DNA from: Sphingobacteriales bacterium
GTDB lineage: Bacteria > Bacteroidota > Bacteroidia > Chitinophagales > JADJOU01
Length of the DNA stretch: 60,902 bases
Assembly: GCA_021297855.1 (NCBI GenBank)
Contig: JAJTHM010000007.1
Coordinates: 1 to 60,902 of the forward strand
Direction: 5' to 3'
Both the position numbers and the translations under genes were made by a program. Below the pieces are notes generated by a model, which was not told the origin of the DNA, searched no databases, and saw nothing but the letters and a program-made list of their open reading frames with translations. Within the stretch, counting starts at the first letter, position 1. The number at the start of each line of letters is the position of its first letter. Positions 43,460 through 50,460 of this stretch are shown one piece after another.

Positions 43460-43532
43460 GGTGCGGTAGCTCAGATGGTAGAGCAATGGACTGAAAATCC
43501 ATGTGTCGGCGGTTCGATCCCGCCCCACACCA
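43460..43532 (+). tRNA. tRNA-Phe (GAA)
   Basis: A 73-base cloverleaf. Acceptor 5' strand GGTGCGG pairs with CCACACC at 43525-43531, with one C-A mismatch at the fifth pair. D arm GCTC/GAGC (43469-43484), anticodon stem ATGGA/TCCAT with GAA at 43493-43495, T arm GGCGG/CCGCC around TTCGATC, discriminator A at 43532, CCA not encoded. Followed by a terminator hairpin and by partial copies of its own 3' half. Confidence 0.95.
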
Positions 43533-43544
43533 CTTCCAATTTTT

Positions 43545-43577
43545 ATCCTCAACTTTTATAGTTGGGGATTTTTTTTT
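43545..43577 (+). terminator. Rho-independent terminator after tRNA-Phe
   Basis: Stem ATCCTCAAC (43545-43553) with GTTGGGGAT (43561-43569), one G-T wobble, then a run of T. A degraded copy lies at 43685-43715. Confidence 0.85.
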
Positions 43578-43604
43578 GACTGAAAAGCAATGTGTCAACG
43601 GTTC

Positions 43605-43654
43605 CCTGTCTGACGACGAGGCAGGCCTGTATGCTTGAACGCAGTTCAGGCAGG
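43605..43654. repeat. Palindromic repeat insertion in T loop of pseudo-tRNA unit 2
   Basis: A 21-base unit starting CCTGTCTGACGACG and ending AGGCAGG, followed by a 29-base variant that also starts CCTGT and ends CAGG. Both fold as hairpins with CCTG/CAGG ends. They sit exactly between GGTTC and GATCC of the tRNA T loop. Confidence 0.7.
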
Positions 43655-43742
43655 GATCCCGCCCCACACCACTTCACAATTTTTATCCTCGACTCTTTTG
43701 TTGGGGATTTTTTTTGACTGAAAAGCAATGTGTCAACGGTTC

Positions 43743-43805
43743 CCTGTCTTACGATCAGGCAGGCCTGTCTTACGATCAGGCAGGCCTGTCTGACGACGAG
43801 GCAGG
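43743..43805. repeat. Three tandem 21-base palindromic units
   Basis: Three head-to-tail copies at 43743, 43764 and 43785. The first two share the centre TACGATC and the third has GACGACG, identical to the unit at 43605. Each has CCTGTCT and AGGCAGG arms. A REP-like repeat family is the likely explanation. Confidence 0.75.
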
Positions 43806-43814
43806 CTTGAATGC

Positions 43815-43848
43815 AAAATCCGCATTTCTAATGCAGATTTTGGGTTAA
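43815..43848. repeat. Copy B of the dispersed hairpin repeat
   Basis: AAAATCCGCAT and ATGCAGATTTT arms around TTCTA, then GGGTTAA. It is the reverse complement of copy A at 17621-17651. The remaining bases to 43985 show no gene or further repeat. Confidence 0.65.
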
Positions 43849-43985
43849 TTAAGGTTCTTAATGAGTGACTTCTATCCTAAAAATTGGAGTAATGGACATT
43901 GGTGGAGGTGATTTTTAGCATTTATCATTCGAAATTCCGATTTTTTAAGTTATCTTTAAATTTTAAAATCCTAATATTTAGACCT

Positions 43986-44294
43986 ATGGCTTCTAAAACA
44001 GCAGCGCACATTCTTGGTTCCTCCCTTAACCTTCTAAGTATCTGCCTTATAATTTTGACTTCTATACATCTGACTAAGAGTTCTCAACAACATTTAATCG
44101 ATGAATTAACTTGTGTTCTAGCTTTTATATTAACTGCTACCTCGATATTGTCATTTAATTCCATCCGTAAAGATAATTTGAACCATGAGCGCTATGCTGA
44201 ATACTTATTTATGGGATCCATAATAGGAGTTTTAGGAATAGTAATTTACATTGTACTCTATTTCTGGATGACAGGAACTATTCCTTTCAATTAG
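43986..44294 (+). CDS. Small three-helix membrane protein
   Basis: About 102 residues from ATG 43986, with three hydrophobic helices (ILGSSLNLLSICLIILTSI, LTCVLAFILTATSILSF and IIGVLGIVIYIVLYFWM). No family is recognised. It lies between the tRNA-derived repeats and the C39 remnant and ends one base before that remnant's inferred 3' border. The real start could be the earlier upstream codon at 43899, but the ATG at 43986 gives a cleaner helix. Confidence 0.55.
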   Translation: MASKTAAHILGSSLNLLSICLIILTSIHLTKSSQQHLIDELTCVLAFILTATSILSFNSIRKDNLNHERYAEYLFMGSIIGVLGIVIYIVLYFWMTGTIPFN

Positions 44295-44513
44295 AATGCA
44301 TACTTAGGATAGTCTCTGCCGCTCGACTTACCCCTTCGTGACCCGTATAGCTCAGTTCCCTTAAAAACTTACCATCAAAGGTCTGCCCATACCACTTGGC
44401 TATCATACTGAGGCAGAGCCTGTCCGCCATACTTGTCCGCCTCTGGAGGAGGAGGATAGCTCGCAGTCCATCTGATCTCGCTGGGGAAAGTATGGGAAAG
44501 AAATAGGTGTCAA
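44295..44513 (-). pseudogene. Remnant of a C39-peptidase ABC exporter (LanT-type) N-terminus
   Basis: Read on the minus strand, the segment gives FPYFPQRDQMDC and, 47 bases further on in another frame, CLSMIAKWYGQTF, then FLRELS and EGVSRAAETI. These match the C39 cysteine-protease domain that begins peptidase-containing ABC exporters (DCGPxCLxMIAKYYG ... LRELS ... REGVS ... AAE). Catalytic Cys in QMDC is kept, but a 38-base-net repeat insertion shifts the frame and the coding sequence stops at AETI, so only ~60 codons remain. Not detected as an ORF, found by reading the gap. It directly follows the permease gene of the lanthipeptide cluster. Confidence 0.7.
44417..44462. repeat. Palindrome-like repeat inserted in the C39 remnant
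   Basis: On the plus strand it starts CCTGTCCGCCATACTTGTCC and ends with a GGAGGAGGA purine run. It begins with the same CCTGTC as the palindromes near tRNA-Phe and breaks the frame between the two conserved Cys of the C39 domain. Confidence 0.5.
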
Positions 44514-44549
44514 ATTCGCAAATTTTATATAAACAACATTGCTAATTAT

Positions 44550-45308
44550 TTATAGCTTTTTTTTATTAAATTTTTTATCAACTAAGCAATTAATTGCAAA
44601 TATACCTAATCCAAATATCGCTATACTAATTATTATAAAATCTAAATAATTTTCTTTATTAGTAAAGTTATAAATTATATTTGAAGGATATGATATTGGA
44701 TAATAGATTGAAACATTTTTTAGAGCAATAAATAAATTTACCATTGTCATAAAAACAAAAAGAACTAAAGGATAAATTATACTTTGAACCCAAATTGTAA
44801 CTAAAGAGTAAATAATAATTATTCCCAAAGAACCTAAAAATATAAGTAAGACCATTATAAATAGGTTTGGATTAGTGAAATTTATTAAAACCTTGAATTC
44901 TGGTCTTGTTACTTTCAATAGAAGCATCACAAATATTCCATAGAAAATCAATACTACGTTTGAAAGCAAATTATATATTAGTAAAAGTGTAAATTTATTA
45001 TTCAAAATTGTTGTTCTCCTAATTCCCATTGAAAACATATTTTTCCAATTATTTGTATAATTCTCAACACCAAATACTGAATAAACTAATAAAATACAAT
45101 TTATTGGTAAAAACATTAATGACCAAGTATCTACTAAGTCAATAAAAAATGGAAGCCAAACATCATTAGGGAAATTTTTAGCGTCACGAATAAAATAACT
45201 AGAGGAAATGAGAAGTACTACTAATAATGGAAAGAGAAGTAAAACCTTGAGACTGACAAAAGATTTATTTTTTAGAATCTCAGCTTTTAAAATGTTTATT
45301 TGTATCAT
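44550..45308 (-). CDS. ABC-2-type permease of the lanthipeptide cluster (immunity-like)
   Basis: A 252-residue inner-membrane protein with about six helices (first near residues 22-42, FVSLKVLLLFPLLVVLLISS). The polar loop ENYTNNWKNMFSMGIRR resembles the EpiE/MutE type permeases that pump lantibiotics out of the producer membrane. It starts 2 bases after the ATPase stop, so translation is coupled. It has no catalytic residues. Very AT-rich like its neighbours. Producer self-protection is inferred from position and topology. Confidence 0.75.
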   Translation of the reverse strand: MIQINILKAEILKNKSFVSLKVLLLFPLLVVLLISSSYFIRDAKNFPNDVWLPFFIDLVDTWSLMFLPINCILLVYSVFGVENYTNNWKNMFSMGIRRTTILNNKFTLLLIYNLLSNVVLIFYGIFVMLLLKVTRPEFKVLINFTNPNLFIMVLLIFLGSLGIIIIYSLVTIWVQSIIYPLVLFVFMTMVNLFIALKNVSIYYPISYPSNIIYNFTNKENYLDFIIISIAIFGLGIFAINCLVDKKFNKKKL

Positions 45309-45310
45309 AT

Positions 45311-46213
45311 TTAGTCGTTTTTTGTAAATTTTAAGAATACACTTTCTAAATTGTTTGATTCAGTTGAAATATCCCTGATTTCAATATTATTGTCCACTAA
45401 TTGCTTTATTAGTTTATTTAGTATTTTGTTATCCACTAATTTATAGGATATAATACTATCATCAGTTGAAAACGGCTGAAGATTAAAAACTTTATTAATT
45501 ATATTAATAGTGTTTTGATTATTATTTGTTTTTAATTTTAATTCAACCTTTTGATTTAAAAACAAATCAGAAATTTTTCCATTATATTGAGATTGACCAT
45601 TATTTATAATAGCTAGTTCTGAAATTATTTTCTCAATTTCAGATAATAAATGACTTGATAAAAAGATAGAAATTCCAAAAGATTTATTTAAATTGAAAAT
45701 TAAATTTCTTATATCAATTATACCATGAGGGTCTAATCCATTTGTTGGTTCATCTAGTATCAATATTTTTGGTTCGTTTAAAAGTGCATTAGCGATTGCT
45801 AGCCTTTGTTTCATGCCAAGAGAAAGCTCATTTGTTTTCAATTTTCCGTCTAACCCAACTATCTCTAAGTATTTAGGTATATTTTTTATAGGTATATTGC
45901 AATATAACTGTTTAATTTTTAAATACTCAAATAAAGTTAGATTTGGATATAAAGTAGGCATCTCTACAAATGCACCAATTTGACTAAGAATTTCATTTTT
46001 GTTATAATACAAATCTTTATTAAAAATAAATACTTTTCCGGGAGGTACAGGATAAAGCCCAAGTATAATTTTTATTAAAGTTGTTTTTCCCGCTCCATTT
46101 GGTCCAATTAGTCCGAAAATAGAATCGGACGACATATTTAAGTTAAATGAATCAAATAATGTTTTGCTTTTATTGTACTGGTAGAAGAGGTCACGTATTT
46201 CTATTATATTCAT
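45311..46213 (-). CDS. ABC transporter ATPase of the lanthipeptide cluster
   Basis: A 300-residue ATP-binding subunit. Walker A GPNGAGKT, signature ELSLGMKQR and Walker B ILILDEPTNGLDP are all intact. The overall form, with an extra C-terminal domain of about 80 residues, matches BcrA/EpiF/MutF-type immunity ATPases. It energises the permease encoded next. It starts 7 bases after lanM on the same strand. Very AT-rich codon use sets it apart from core genes such as uvrB. Confidence 0.88.
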   Translation of the reverse strand: MNIIEIRDLFYQYNKSKTLFDSFNLNMSSDSIFGLIGPNGAGKTTLIKIILGLYPVPPGKVFIFNKDLYYNKNEILSQIGAFVEMPTLYPNLTLFEYLKIKQLYCNIPIKNIPKYLEIVGLDGKLKTNELSLGMKQRLAIANALLNEPKILILDEPTNGLDPHGIIDIRNLIFNLNKSFGISIFLSSHLLSEIEKIISELAIINNGQSQYNGKISDLFLNQKVELKLKTNNNQNTINIINKVFNLQPFSTDDSIISYKLVDNKILNKLIKQLVDNNIEIRDISTESNNLESVFLKFTKND

Positions 46214-46220
46214 TCGTTTT

Positions 46221-48974
46221 TTATTTAAATTCTAAAATTGATTCTGATTTGTTAAGTGATAAATTTATTAATGTATAACACAATCCTCCAATTCCAGTAA
46301 AAAGTTCAACTGGTAAAAAACTGTATTCATATCCTGGATTAAAATTTTTCTTTGAAACACTGAAATAGAAATTATTTTTTAAAATTTCAAAGTCACATTT
46401 TTGCAAAAAATTTAGCTGATATAGTTTTTGAGCAATAAGTATATTTCCACTATCCCCATGACATAAACAATCATTTTTATTAAAACAATTATTAATAAAA
46501 TAATTTATACCTCTAAGTACATCGATTGAATAATCTTCATCTTTAGTCAAATTATATATTAGAGCCCTAGAAAATATAATGCCGGGTGTTCCATTACACC
46601 AACCTTCATGATATGAATAACTTGAATCTAATGACCAAGAACCATTTGAATTGTCGAAAAAAGTATTTTCGTACTTAACTAATTTTTTAATCTCATGTAA
46701 CAATTCTGAATTATCAATTATATTCAGATTTATTAAATTTGAAAACGCATAAGCGATTCCAGCTGCACCATGTGCAAAGCCTATTTTTAAACTATTTGAA
46801 TTTATAGCAATATTGATTTCAAATTTAACTTTACTGTATATTTTATGAAGAATTTGATCTACAATGTCTAAATTTAAAGAATGAGATCTTATCTTAGTAA
46901 AACACATTATATCGCCACATAAACCATTAAGTAATCCAATATCATTTTGCAATTTAATTTCATCATAAACTAAAATCAAGTATTTTATTTTTTTAATAAA
47001 CCAATCAATCTTACCAATGTTGCTGTCTTTCATTTTATCCAACATAAAGAGATACTCTGTAATTCCACCATTAAAAATACCAGTTTCTGGTCTAAAAAAA
47101 TTAACAGTAACATTGTTTAGATAAATTCTTTCAAAGTAAGAGCTAAAAATCTTTTCTTTAATGCTTGCAAATTTAAGATCTTCTGATTTTGTATATTCCT
47201 GAAATAAATATAACAAACCGCCAAGTCCTGAATAAATAAAAGGACTAATTGGATAAATTTGCATCATTCTTTCTTTCTCGTCAAATGTTGAAAACCAACC
47301 AATACTATTTTGTTCAGATATTGAATTCTCAATTATTATATTGAAAATATCACTAATTTTTTGGTTTAAATCAAATTTACGGACTTTCTGTTTTGAATTA
47401 TCTTCTGAGTTTGTAACTAGGTTGTTTTTTGTAAGTAACTCTTTAATAATCTTAATTTGAAAATCTAGATCTTCCATACCAAGCGAATCAATTTTATCTT
47501 TTACAATAGCTATATTTTTTTTATTGAAAAAATTGTGATAAATTTTATTGTTTGAATGTAGATTTTTAGAGTTTAGATATGTGTAGAAATATGGAATGTC
47601 ATAATTAAGTAACTGAATGCACTCATCTGAAAATACAACTTTTAAAAGCTTATTGTATATTGGGTCGTTTCTAAATTGTTTTAACAATTTAACTCTATTT
47701 GTAGAATCCCATATATTAGTTGGATATGAAATATCACTTATAGCTTTACCATATTCTTCAGTATTCCTTAATAAAACTCTAATTTTAAGTTTTGATAAAT
47801 TAGAGAGAATGAATTTCTTAATATTTCCCTCATTATTTGAAAAATAATTATAAACTGTTTTAAATCCATAAATAATATGTTTTTCATATTCCTTAGGATA
47901 AATTTTTTTGCCATTAAATATAGGAAGATTTGAAGATTCAACTTTTTTACTAATTTCTTTTCTAACTGGCTTTGTCGTACCTTCTATAATAAATGATTTT
48001 TCGAAAACATCTTCTACGCCACTTAACCCACCTAGATTTACTTTAGAATCATCTCTTATTGTAAAAACGCCGAGTAATTGCGATTGCATAACTGAGATTT
48101 GCACTAATTTAGTTATTAGTTTATTTGATTCGTTTTTGAAAGGAAAAATATCATATACATTTATTGGATTTACTAATGTATCTAAATCAATCAAGACAGG
48201 GTCTTCGCCAGAGCAAATAATATTTTCATAGTGTATATCACACGAATTCATTATGTATAATAAAAATAAATGAATACCAATTTTTATATAGAAATTTTCA
48301 ACTTCTTCTGTTGTATTACATTCTTTATATTCGATTGACTCTACAAAATGAAAACATCCAAAAGATAAGATTTTTAATTTTTTAAAATTTTGTTTTAAAT
48401 CACTGTCTAATTTTGCTAACAATTTATTGTAAAATATTTCTTGTTCACCCGACCTTGGCTTATAATAAAGTGATTTTTCATTATTAAAGTTAATTTTTAA
48501 CACGCACTTATTTCCATTATGTAAATCTCCGTAGTTTGACTGAATTGTTTCAATTTTTACTTCTCTGTCATACTTAAAGTATTTACAAATTAGGTCTAAG
48601 CTACAATAAATATTATTGTATGTCAAAATTGTATTTTCGCCCCAGTTTTTTATTAATTTTATACAGTCAGAGTATAATAATTTGTGTTTATTGAAAAAAA
48701 TGAATTTCGTTTTTTTGTCTCTAATTATTGTGTGAATATATTTATTTGAAGGAATTTCTAGTTCGTTTAAATAGACTATCATACTCTTATGCAATATTTC
48801 AAACAAATTTTGAAATAACACTTCTAAAAATCCGTTTTTTAACACCCCCTCATCTACAGTTTGGTTTGTCTCAATAAGAATTGAAAGTACATAATTATAT
48901 TCTATAAAAACTTCATCACTAATAAAGTCAATATAATGTGCATTTTTGTTTTTTACTAAATCTGATATAAACAT
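46221..48974 (-). CDS. lanM: Class II lanthipeptide synthetase LanM
   Basis: A 917-residue bifunctional enzyme that dehydrates Ser/Thr and cyclises them with Cys. The N-terminal DUF4135 dehydratase has LYYKPRSGEQEIFYNKLL and the kinase-like SCDIHYENIICSGEDP followed by LIDLDTLVNP. The C-terminal LanC-like cyclase has H735 in GFAHGAAG and zinc ligands C793 (GWCNGTPG), C838 and H839 (CLCHGDSG). The length fits LanM. It acts in the cytosol on the precursor encoded just upstream. The AT content is markedly higher than in neighbouring core genes, suggesting transfer. Likely co-transcribed with the two ABC genes. Confidence 0.92.
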   Translation of the reverse strand: MFISDLVKNKNAHYIDFISDEVFIEYNYVLSILIETNQTVDEGVLKNGFLEVLFQNLFEILHKSMIVYLNELEIPSNKYIHTIIRDKKTKFIFFNKHKLLYSDCIKLIKNWGENTILTYNNIYCSLDLICKYFKYDREVKIETIQSNYGDLHNGNKCVLKINFNNEKSLYYKPRSGEQEIFYNKLLAKLDSDLKQNFKKLKILSFGCFHFVESIEYKECNTTEEVENFYIKIGIHLFLLYIMNSCDIHYENIICSGEDPVLIDLDTLVNPINVYDIFPFKNESNKLITKLVQISVMQSQLLGVFTIRDDSKVNLGGLSGVEDVFEKSFIIEGTTKPVRKEISKKVESSNLPIFNGKKIYPKEYEKHIIYGFKTVYNYFSNNEGNIKKFILSNLSKLKIRVLLRNTEEYGKAISDISYPTNIWDSTNRVKLLKQFRNDPIYNKLLKVVFSDECIQLLNYDIPYFYTYLNSKNLHSNNKIYHNFFNKKNIAIVKDKIDSLGMEDLDFQIKIIKELLTKNNLVTNSEDNSKQKVRKFDLNQKISDIFNIIIENSISEQNSIGWFSTFDEKERMMQIYPISPFIYSGLGGLLYLFQEYTKSEDLKFASIKEKIFSSYFERIYLNNVTVNFFRPETGIFNGGITEYLFMLDKMKDSNIGKIDWFIKKIKYLILVYDEIKLQNDIGLLNGLCGDIMCFTKIRSHSLNLDIVDQILHKIYSKVKFEINIAINSNSLKIGFAHGAAGIAYAFSNLINLNIIDNSELLHEIKKLVKYENTFFDNSNGSWSLDSSYSYHEGWCNGTPGIIFSRALIYNLTKDEDYSIDVLRGINYFINNCFNKNDCLCHGDSGNILIAQKLYQLNFLQKCDFEILKNNFYFSVSKKNFNPGYEYSFLPVELFTGIGGLCYTLINLSLNKSESILEFK

Positions 48975-48989
48975 AAAAATATAATAATT

Positions 48990-49032
48990 AAAAAATGCTA
49001 TAGGTTAGTTTAAAATCAACATAACCTATAGC
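48990..49032 (-). terminator. Hairpin between precursor and synthetase genes, likely attenuator
   Basis: Perfect 11-base arms GCTATAGGTTA (48997-49007) and TAACCTATAGC (49022-49032) with a 14-base loop, followed on the minus strand by ATTTTTT. It sits between the precursor stop and the lanM start, where partial termination would give more precursor than enzyme. Confidence 0.75.
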
Positions 49033-49070
49033 ACCGAACTCTGTTTTACAAATGAACAACTATATAGTAA

Positions 49071-49328
49071 TTAATTACTTATAGTTGCTTCTACTGCAGT
49101 TACATCATCCTGTGACACAATAGGACCGAATGGGTTGCATGATTTTGCTGTTTCACCATCAGCACTCACACCACAAATCCATCCACATCCTTTTCTGTCA
49201 GAACTAAACCATGAGCCTTTAACTTGGATTATTATCTCCTCATCATTTAATTCTCCTCCTTTAACTTGATTTAAATCAAAATTTGGGCTACCGATTAGAG
49301 CTTCTAAATTTTCAAATGATTTTTTCAT
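49071..49328 (-). CDS. lanA: Lanthipeptide precursor peptide
   Basis: An 85-residue peptide immediately upstream of lanM. The leader has a double-glycine-type site. One candidate is QVKGG with G24-G25; a second, better fitting the ELNDEE...VxG pattern, is QVKGS at G38-S39. The core that follows the second site starts WFSSDRKGCGW and has C48, C52 and C64, together with S42, S43, S55, T60, S63, S72, T77, T82 and S84 that could be dehydrated. Three Cys allow up to three thioether rings. No homologue is recognised, so the ring pattern is unknown. The start is ATG 49328. Confidence 0.8.
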   Translation of the reverse strand: MKKSFENLEALIGSPNFDLNQVKGGELNDEEIIIQVKGSWFSSDRKGCGWICGVSADGETAKSCNPFGPIVSQDDVTAVEATISN

Positions 49329-49411
49329 TTTTATAAATTTTATTTGTTTACAATTCCCTTTCGGGGGTATAGTTATTTCTCTATGACGAAAGAGGGTCGG
49401 TTTACATTCGG

Positions 49412-49609
49412 TAGTTTACTACCTCAGGCAGTATATGTCTAAAACCTGCTGCTTATTTCTATACCGACGTTTTAGCCGGCATGGCTTGCGCGCACGAGTA
49501 TAGCAGTTCTCGATAGTTTATACGACATACAGGTCGGTTTTTTTGGTTTTCTCCCCTTCTGCTTATTATACAGTTTGCAGTTTCGCTAGTTTATACCACA
49601 TAGAGGTGG
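49412..49609. repeat. Three hairpin-bearing repeats upstream of the precursor gene
   Basis: Units at 49412 (TAGTTTACTACC), 49514 (TAGTTTATACGACATACAGG) and 49587 (TAGTTTATACCACATAGAGG). In units 2 and 3 the stem pairs CGAC/GTCG and CCAC/GTGG differ by a compensating G-C to C-G swap, so pairing is conserved while bases change. They lie in the gene-free 49329-49765 gap. Unit 1 is the most diverged. Confidence 0.6.
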
Positions 49610-49712
49610 GTAAAAATAAGCCAAAAAATCTCAAGAAGCTTTCGCGAATACCCCCTATAGGTTTTTTAGCTTGTTTACTATAACAAAGATAGAGAGGGGA
49701 AATGACAAATGC

Positions 49713-49763
49713 AATTACTTTTGAGAAAAAATAATTACTTTTACAAATAAAATAATTACTAAA
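49713..49763 (+). promoter_or_regulatory. Three phased direct repeats, likely operator of the XRE gene
   Basis: AATTACTTTT at 49713 and 49733, and AATTACTAAA at 49754. Spacings of 20 and 21 bases are about two helical turns, so a protein could bind all three from one face. They end 2 bases before the XRE start, a usual place for an autoregulating site. Confidence 0.55.
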
Positions 49764-49765
49764 AT

Positions 49766-50131
49766 ATGGATTTAGTCTTAGAGAATATAGTCAAATATAG
49801 AAAAGAAAAGGGATATAGTCATGAAGTTATGGCTAATCTGCTAGAAATAGCTCAACCAACATATTATAAAATAGAAAGTGGGAAAACTGAATTGTCACTT
49901 AAAAGATTATATCAAATTGCTTCAGCCTTAGAGCTTGGCATCGAAAAGCTAATTGGCATCGAAGCCAAACAAATGGTACATCAAGTAAAAGATACAGGTG
50001 TAGGTATTCAAAACATAGAAAACCAATACAATCACATGAAGGAATCCTACGAAGAACATATTAAGAGCCTCAAGGAAGAGATAAACTATTTAAGGACTTT
50101 GGTGCGCGGAGCATCAGACACAGTTGATTGA
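49766..50131 (+). CDS. XRE-family HTH regulator with coiled-coil tail
   Basis: A 121-residue DNA-binding protein. The HTH_3 domain covers about residues 7-62, with helix-turn-helix in SHEVMANLLEIAQPTYYKIESGKT and ELSLKRLYQIASALE following. The C-terminal ~45 residues (MKESYEEHIKSLKEEINYLRTL) are a coiled coil for dimerisation. It is divergent from the lanthipeptide operon and may regulate it or itself through the phased repeats just upstream. Target is inferred, not shown. Confidence 0.85.
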   Translation: MDLVLENIVKYRKEKGYSHEVMANLLEIAQPTYYKIESGKTELSLKRLYQIASALELGIEKLIGIEAKQMVHQVKDTGVGIQNIENQYNHMKESYEEHIKSLKEEINYLRTLVRGASDTVD

Positions 50132-50159: not shown

Positions 50160-50460
50160 ACCTCAAAATAAAGCTGTCGCACCTTTTTCCTCAGTCAGCG
50201 GAGGTTTGACCTCGGCTGTCCTCCAAAATAGCTCGAAAAGCGGACAAAAATGCTCGGAGCGAGAAGTAAAAACCTGCGCTCGCCGAGGTTTTTTATGCGC
50301 CGACCGAGGTAAAAGCACCGATAAGGGAGGAAAAAGCTCGGTCATCTCTATTTTTTTCTCGGTCGGCTGAGGTTTGACCTCCGCCGACCGAGCTTTGACC
50401 TCCGACCGCCGAGCTCAAAGGTAGGGGGGGGGTACCTCAGAGGTGGGGGGTCGCTGTGTT
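50160..50460. repeat. GC-rich palindromic repeat region
   Basis: Gene-free stretch much richer in G+C than its surroundings. It holds the palindrome GAGGT-TTG-ACCTC twice (50201-50213 and 50370-50382), each inside a longer stem. The best runs 50358-50392 with arms CTCGGTCGGC and GCCGACCGAG, 10 plus 5 pairs. GACCGAG/CTCGGTC at 50302 and 50337 forms another. A G9 and a G6 run follow (50424-50432, 50445-50450). It sits downstream of both flanking convergent genes. The remaining 50461-50578 shows nothing. Confidence 0.6.

Follow-up and report, generated by a model that had tools for sequence, protein, structure and literature searches.

Precursors of the mersacidin/lichenicidin and plantaricin C families (TIGR03898 and NF000539) belong to the class II, LanM-dependent type and combine glycine-type cleavage with a Cys-containing C-terminal core. 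The TxTxEC motif of mersacidin has been described as lipid II-binding (PMC7268733). For the whole phylum Bacteroidota, only the class I pinensins were named in a survey of 2020 (PMC7268733); these lanthipeptides of Chitinophaga pinensis are produced by separate LanB and LanC enzymes and not by a LanM. Two class II LanM cases, both from Prevotella, were reported among 1,136 genomes in a survey of the Bacteroidales (PMC10352776), and the location of class II clusters near mobile DNA is a described theme (PMC12715929). In the present sampling, a LanM above the cut-off was obtained from 6 of 395 Bacteroidota genomes, the genome studied here being one of them, while some LanM match, in several cases only partial, was found in 15 of 398 genomes of the same order. 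Class II LanM enzymes are uncommon but established in Bacteroidota. We know of no class II lanthipeptide that has been isolated from this phylum.

The locus analyzed here lies in the window, the whole stretch of 60,902 nucleotides of DNA under study, and was compared with a locus in a genome of the same order (G544, L112:10469-17872). In both, the genes are arranged A-M-F-E-T on one strand, with one permease and no LanG, and both encode a precursor with two glycine-type sites 13-14 residues apart. Identity between the two loci is 41.9% for LanF, 26% for LanE and only 24% for LanM, and the GC content at third codon positions (GC3) of lanM is 18% in the window versus 48% in G544. Furthermore, G544 has an intact LanT, a TIGR03898 mersacidin-type leader and a CTISGEC motif, none of which is present in the window. 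The original prediction of a precursor, a LanM and an ABC pair in the order A-M-F-E was borne out: all four ORFs are open and occupy positions 44550-49328 of the minus strand. As described below, a LanM scoring above the TIGR03897 cut-off and flanks collinear with a genus-mate agree with its view of a class II lanthipeptide locus in a Bacteroidota genome.

The LanM synthetase and its candidate substrate

The lanM gene (46221-48974, minus strand) encodes a class II lanthipeptide synthetase of 917 aa with zero internal stops. Against TIGR03897, whose cut-off is 304, the protein scored 474.8 bits, and PF13575 (227 bits) and PF05147 (126 bits) were matched far above their cut-offs; a DUF4135 dehydratase domain and a LanC domain are thus combined in one protein, as in class II synthetases, and its fold is settled by these models. 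The solved structures nearest to it by sequence are those of LicM2 and CylM. In CylM, the residues D252, H254, D347, H349, N352, D364, R506 and T512 have been mutated (PMC4550811), and their counterparts in the window LanM are, in this order, D150, H152, D246, H248, N251, D263, R399 and T405. Together with the LanC-domain zinc ligands C793, C838 and H839, all of these residues are present, which agrees with the earlier statement that zinc ligands and dehydratase motifs are intact. Asp265 replaces a Glu that is invariant in 17 of 17 other LanM proteins compared.

The identity of LanM to anything found does not exceed about 28% over the aligned parts, and in a LanM tree the window protein forms a long branch that is unplaced. 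Two scans of genome contigs for relatives of this LanM gave no confirmed homologue, so that no close relative or donor can be named from them. A donor in the Bacillota, first suggested by LanF matches at 40-42%, was rejected, as the LanF of G544 scores higher and the LanM branch is long and unplaced. LanM-like proteins were also found in two other genomes of the order, G686 (L113, 7111-10314) and G495 (L115, 7418-10408); in both, non-ligand residues align at the LanC zinc sites, which may reflect lost cyclase function or a fault in the alignment.

An ORF of 85 aa (49071-49328, minus strand) is the lanA-like precursor gene. It shows the features expected of a LanA: the peptide is short and encoded beside lanM, its leader ends in a site of the glycine type, and its core has Ser, Thr and Cys. 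The glycine-type sites VKGG (residues 22-25) and VKGS (residues 36-39) are 14 residues apart and are followed by Cys48, Cys52 and Cys64. Two such sites are by themselves no proof of a chimeric peptide, because the G544 precursor has two as well. GC3 groups the precursor gene with lanM and not with the host genes, a comparison based on 86 codons only.

No family match was obtained for the precursor among the Pfam and NCBIfam models, TIGR03898 and NF000539 included, in keeping with the earlier remark that it could not be recognized. Nevertheless, its core can be aligned without gaps over 19 residues to the core of the G544 precursor (GWICGVSADGETAKSCNPF vs GWVCTISGECNGGSCCNPF), with none of 5000 shuffles being as good, and the two cores have the motif GW[IV]C..S........CNPF in common. 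Since G544 was found via its LanM and not via its precursor, this match is an independent test. The similarity to two precursor cores of G686 was weak (p 0.015 and 0.07). The G544 precursor itself belongs to the mersacidin/lichenicidin family (TIGR03898, 43 bits) and has the CTISGEC motif. At the corresponding position the window precursor reads CGVSADG, in which other residues stand in place of the Thr, Glu and second Cys, so that the lipid II-binding residues of TxS/TxEC are not conserved; a mersacidin-type leader (AWKD) is absent. The window precursor therefore lacks both the TIGR03898 match and the TxS/TxEC motif by which members of this family are assigned.

The exporter remnant and the LanFE-like pair

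Directly downstream of lanE, a 5'-end remnant of an exporter gene is located at 44290-44520 on the minus strand. It matches the C39 peptidase profile PF03412 (E 0.002) and has 85% DNA identity to an exporter gene on another contig (C69) of the same genome. An insertion of ~50 nt splits the DCG motif, another 15 nt have been lost beyond this point, and nothing remains of the later parts of the gene. In place of intact C39 peptidase, transmembrane and ATPase domains, the C39 profile matches only residues 5-35 of an ORF of 47 aa. Because a complete C39 LanT occupies exactly this position in G544, we read the stub as what is left of the T in an A-M-F-E-T operon. Hence the set is incomplete, and its earlier description as complete does not hold: of the exporter/leader peptidase only a broken 5' remnant is left.

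A search of the genome's own 134 contigs for C39 domains yielded none beyond the window stub and those on C69. For the exporter on C69, the match to the 137-position ABC_tran profile covers only positions 1-94; an IS end then follows, and the gene is thereby cut before the ABC signature. An intact LanT could lie in an IS-bounded gap of the assembly. On C69 (L047, 104-3318), a DUF1016/YhcG nuclease gene lies between two copies of the LanT 5' end, and IS-like sequence is found at both ends of the contig.

The two genes between lanM and the stub encode an ABC ATPase of 300 aa (45311-46213, minus strand) and an ABC permease of 252 aa (44550-45308, minus strand). For the ATPase, the best model was the lantibiotic-protection family TIGR03740 with 199 bits (cut-off 310); the LanF of G544 likewise stays below this cut-off with 217 bits. 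A Glu occupies the Q-loop position of the window ATPase, and this residue is invariant in seven LanF-type ATPases compared. The permease matched PF12730 with 27.4 bits and MutE with 28 bits (cut-off 145), and no second permease (LanG) was found in the cluster. We use the label LanFE-like because the ATPase scores below the TIGR03740 cut-off and the permease is weaker still. Of the proposed immunity-type ABC pair, the presence of a LanF/LanE-like pair was confirmed, but the scores fall short of the curated cut-offs and a LanG is missing.

Base composition, insertion site and shared ends

The A-M-F-E ORFs have a GC content of 24%, and their GC3 values (A 0.186, M 0.182, F 0.186, E 0.174) differ from that of the host genes (0.345 +/- 0.032 for 18 genes of the window). 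In the same comparison, the LanT stub gave 0.52 and the region 5' of lanA 0.44. That all four ORFs have stayed open at 24% GC suggests recent arrival or continued selection and not a dead locus.

LanM searches in four genus-mates, three of which are 93-99% complete and one only 62%, found none. In the same-genus genome G002, both flanks are collinear with the window and the cluster is absent, its place being taken by ~0.6 kb with a small GIY-YIG ORF. The variable site is situated downstream of a tRNA-Phe gene (43460-43533, plus strand), and broken copies of the tRNA 3' half follow this gene both here and in G002. Integration at tRNA ends often leaves such repeats behind. The collinear flanks in a same-genus genome and a neighboring gene for an SprB/CHU_C type IX secretion protein support the Bacteroidota setting. 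Contamination or a chimeric contig was rejected as an explanation, since both flanks are collinear with the same-genus genome and the junction DNA on either side recurs elsewhere in the genome.

Within 43460-43850, the broken tRNA-Phe copies are interrupted by 21-nt repeats (CCTGTCTGACGACGAGGCAGG), and a similar broken tRNA-Phe copy was seen after the GIY-YIG ORF of G002. On the other side of the cluster, the DNA between the HTH and SprB-like genes (50160-50420) includes a stretch that is GC-rich and of low complexity and contains TTTGACCTCSGYCGACC-type repeats.

The 200 nt upstream of lanA (49336-49535, minus strand) have a host-like GC content of 41.5%. Over ~155 nt this 5' region is near-identical, except for an indel of ~33 nt, to the DNA preceding the GG-peptide gene of a second, unrelated locus, which lies on contig C72 of this genome (G000, L110:300-1820), and full copies of it were found only in these two places when the own genome and 99 relatives were searched. 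The similarity between the two loci extends into the reading frame (MKKS...E), with a shuffle p of 0.003 for leader versus leader. At its downstream end, the C72 locus also carries a LanT stub, in which the same insertion as in the window occurs at the same position. The same 5' region and the same interrupted LanT stub mean that two loci in one genome have both ends in common and differ in their cargo. On C72, the cargo consists of a Cys-free peptide of 112 aa and a CPBP-like membrane protein and contains no LanM. The 112-aa GG-leader peptide gene adjoins that of the CPBP-like protein (L110, 447-1640), and the pair is possibly an unmodified bacteriocin with its immunity protein.

A search of Rfam with the shared 5' region gave no family match, and a scan of viral contigs for it likewise gave no match; its two copies are only slightly more stable in folding than shuffled sequences (z -1.6 and -2.2). 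Further upstream, a Bacteroidota-type promoter sequence, TTG-N20-TATCTTTG, is matched at 49684-49714 (minus strand). It is the only match in the window, 0.11 being expected for the window as a whole. A divergent XRE-type HTH gene (49766-50131, plus strand; PF01381) encodes a possible regulator and has a paralogue of 80% identity on contig C50, where it adjoins an IS end. Attenuator hairpins are common between lanA and lanM, and a hairpin with a T-run was found in this position (48978-49036, minus strand; z -3.6, no shuffle as stable), making it attenuator-like.

Interpretation of the locus

We consider it probable that the locus is a mosaic, derived from a class II lanthipeptide operon of the A-M-F-E-T type whose exporter has been lost, with a horizontally acquired A-M-F-E part placed between host-type ends. 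The gene order, the intact active site of LanM, the foreign composition, the shared 5' region, the broken LanT and the absence from the sampled genus-mates are features that can be read from the sequences themselves. The AT-rich block would have been acquired horizontally and settled in the variable region downstream of tRNA-Phe. Upstream, it would have been joined to host-type bacteriocin signals, namely the Bacteroidota-type promoter, the conserved 5' leader region of ~155 nt and, probably, the opening codons of a GG-leader gene; downstream, it would have been joined to a C39 exporter gene, now a stub. Several points stand against this explanation: A, M, F and E are all open, an intact LanT could lie outside the 134 contigs, LanF and LanE score below the immunity cut-offs, and LanM, a long unplaced branch, is at most about 28% identical to anything found.

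According to this mosaic reading, transcription would start from the host-type promoter, and the hairpin would yield much precursor and less LanM. LanM would then phosphorylate and eliminate Ser and Thr residues of the core, its LanC domain would join Cys48, Cys52 and Cys64 into as many as three (methyl)lanthionine rings, and LanFE would clear the product from the membrane of the producer. Lacking an intact C39 exporter, the cell would be expected to retain the peptide with its leader attached, neither matured nor secreted unless exported in trans. Barring such export, the system is probably silent in this strain or restricted to immunity.

A possible extension, which we regard as tentative, is that the shared ends form a bacteriocin expression platform with fixed ends, comprising the HTH gene, the promoter, the 5' leader region and the first leader codons on one side and the 5' end of the C39 exporter on the other, between which the peptide and the modification or immunity genes are exchanged. 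A foreign lanA-lanM-lanFE set might have been captured in this way and the precursor given a host leader start, resulting in a chimera with two glycine-type sites. With a core that lacks the lipid II motif, such a peptide would possibly address a new target.

It is unlikely that the strain is a working producer whose peptide is matured and exported by an exporter encoded elsewhere in the genome or missing from the assembly. The open A, M, F and E genes, the intact LanM active site, the promoter match, the attenuator-like hairpin and the near-complete LanT relative on C69 would all fit a functional system. However, the C69 gene is cut by an IS end before the ABC signature, no other C39 domain was found in the genome, and the core is devoid of the lipid II motif residues.

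Equally doubtful is an immunity remnant, in which LanFE is kept against the lanthipeptides of neighbors while lanA and lanM are passengers being lost. The exporter has indeed already gone, the ATPase is nearest to the lantibiotic-protection model and it carries the invariant Glu at the Q-loop position. On the other hand, lanM, the largest gene of the block, has neither acquired a stop nor lost a catalytic residue, and Bacteroidota have an outer membrane, which limits their need for protection from lantibiotics. That the 85-aa ORF encodes a peptide of the host, with a GG leader but no relation to the adjoining LanM, the true substrate being lost or encoded elsewhere, is very improbable: its 5' region and first codons do match the C72 peptide locus, which is without LanM, and no family model recognizes it, but its GC3 equals that of lanM and its core matches that of a TIGR03898 precursor in the same gene order in G544.

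New features of the locus are a LanM that is very distant, a precursor that lacks the residues of the lipid II motif, and a mosaic build between two host ends. The locus offers a testable case, in which a LanM far from all those compared has kept its active site and faces a core that resembles the mersacidin family yet is without its lipid II-binding motif residues. The ends common to two bacteriocin loci in one genome suggest a way in which peptide cassettes may be swapped under one set of host signals, and such swapping could help to explain how clusters start working in a new host.

A genome from another genus of the family has a GG-leader peptide gene that is followed by a gene for an unknown protein of 424 aa and, further on, by the start of a C39 exporter (G005:C21; L116, 2285-4893); this locus is perhaps a different RiPP cluster.
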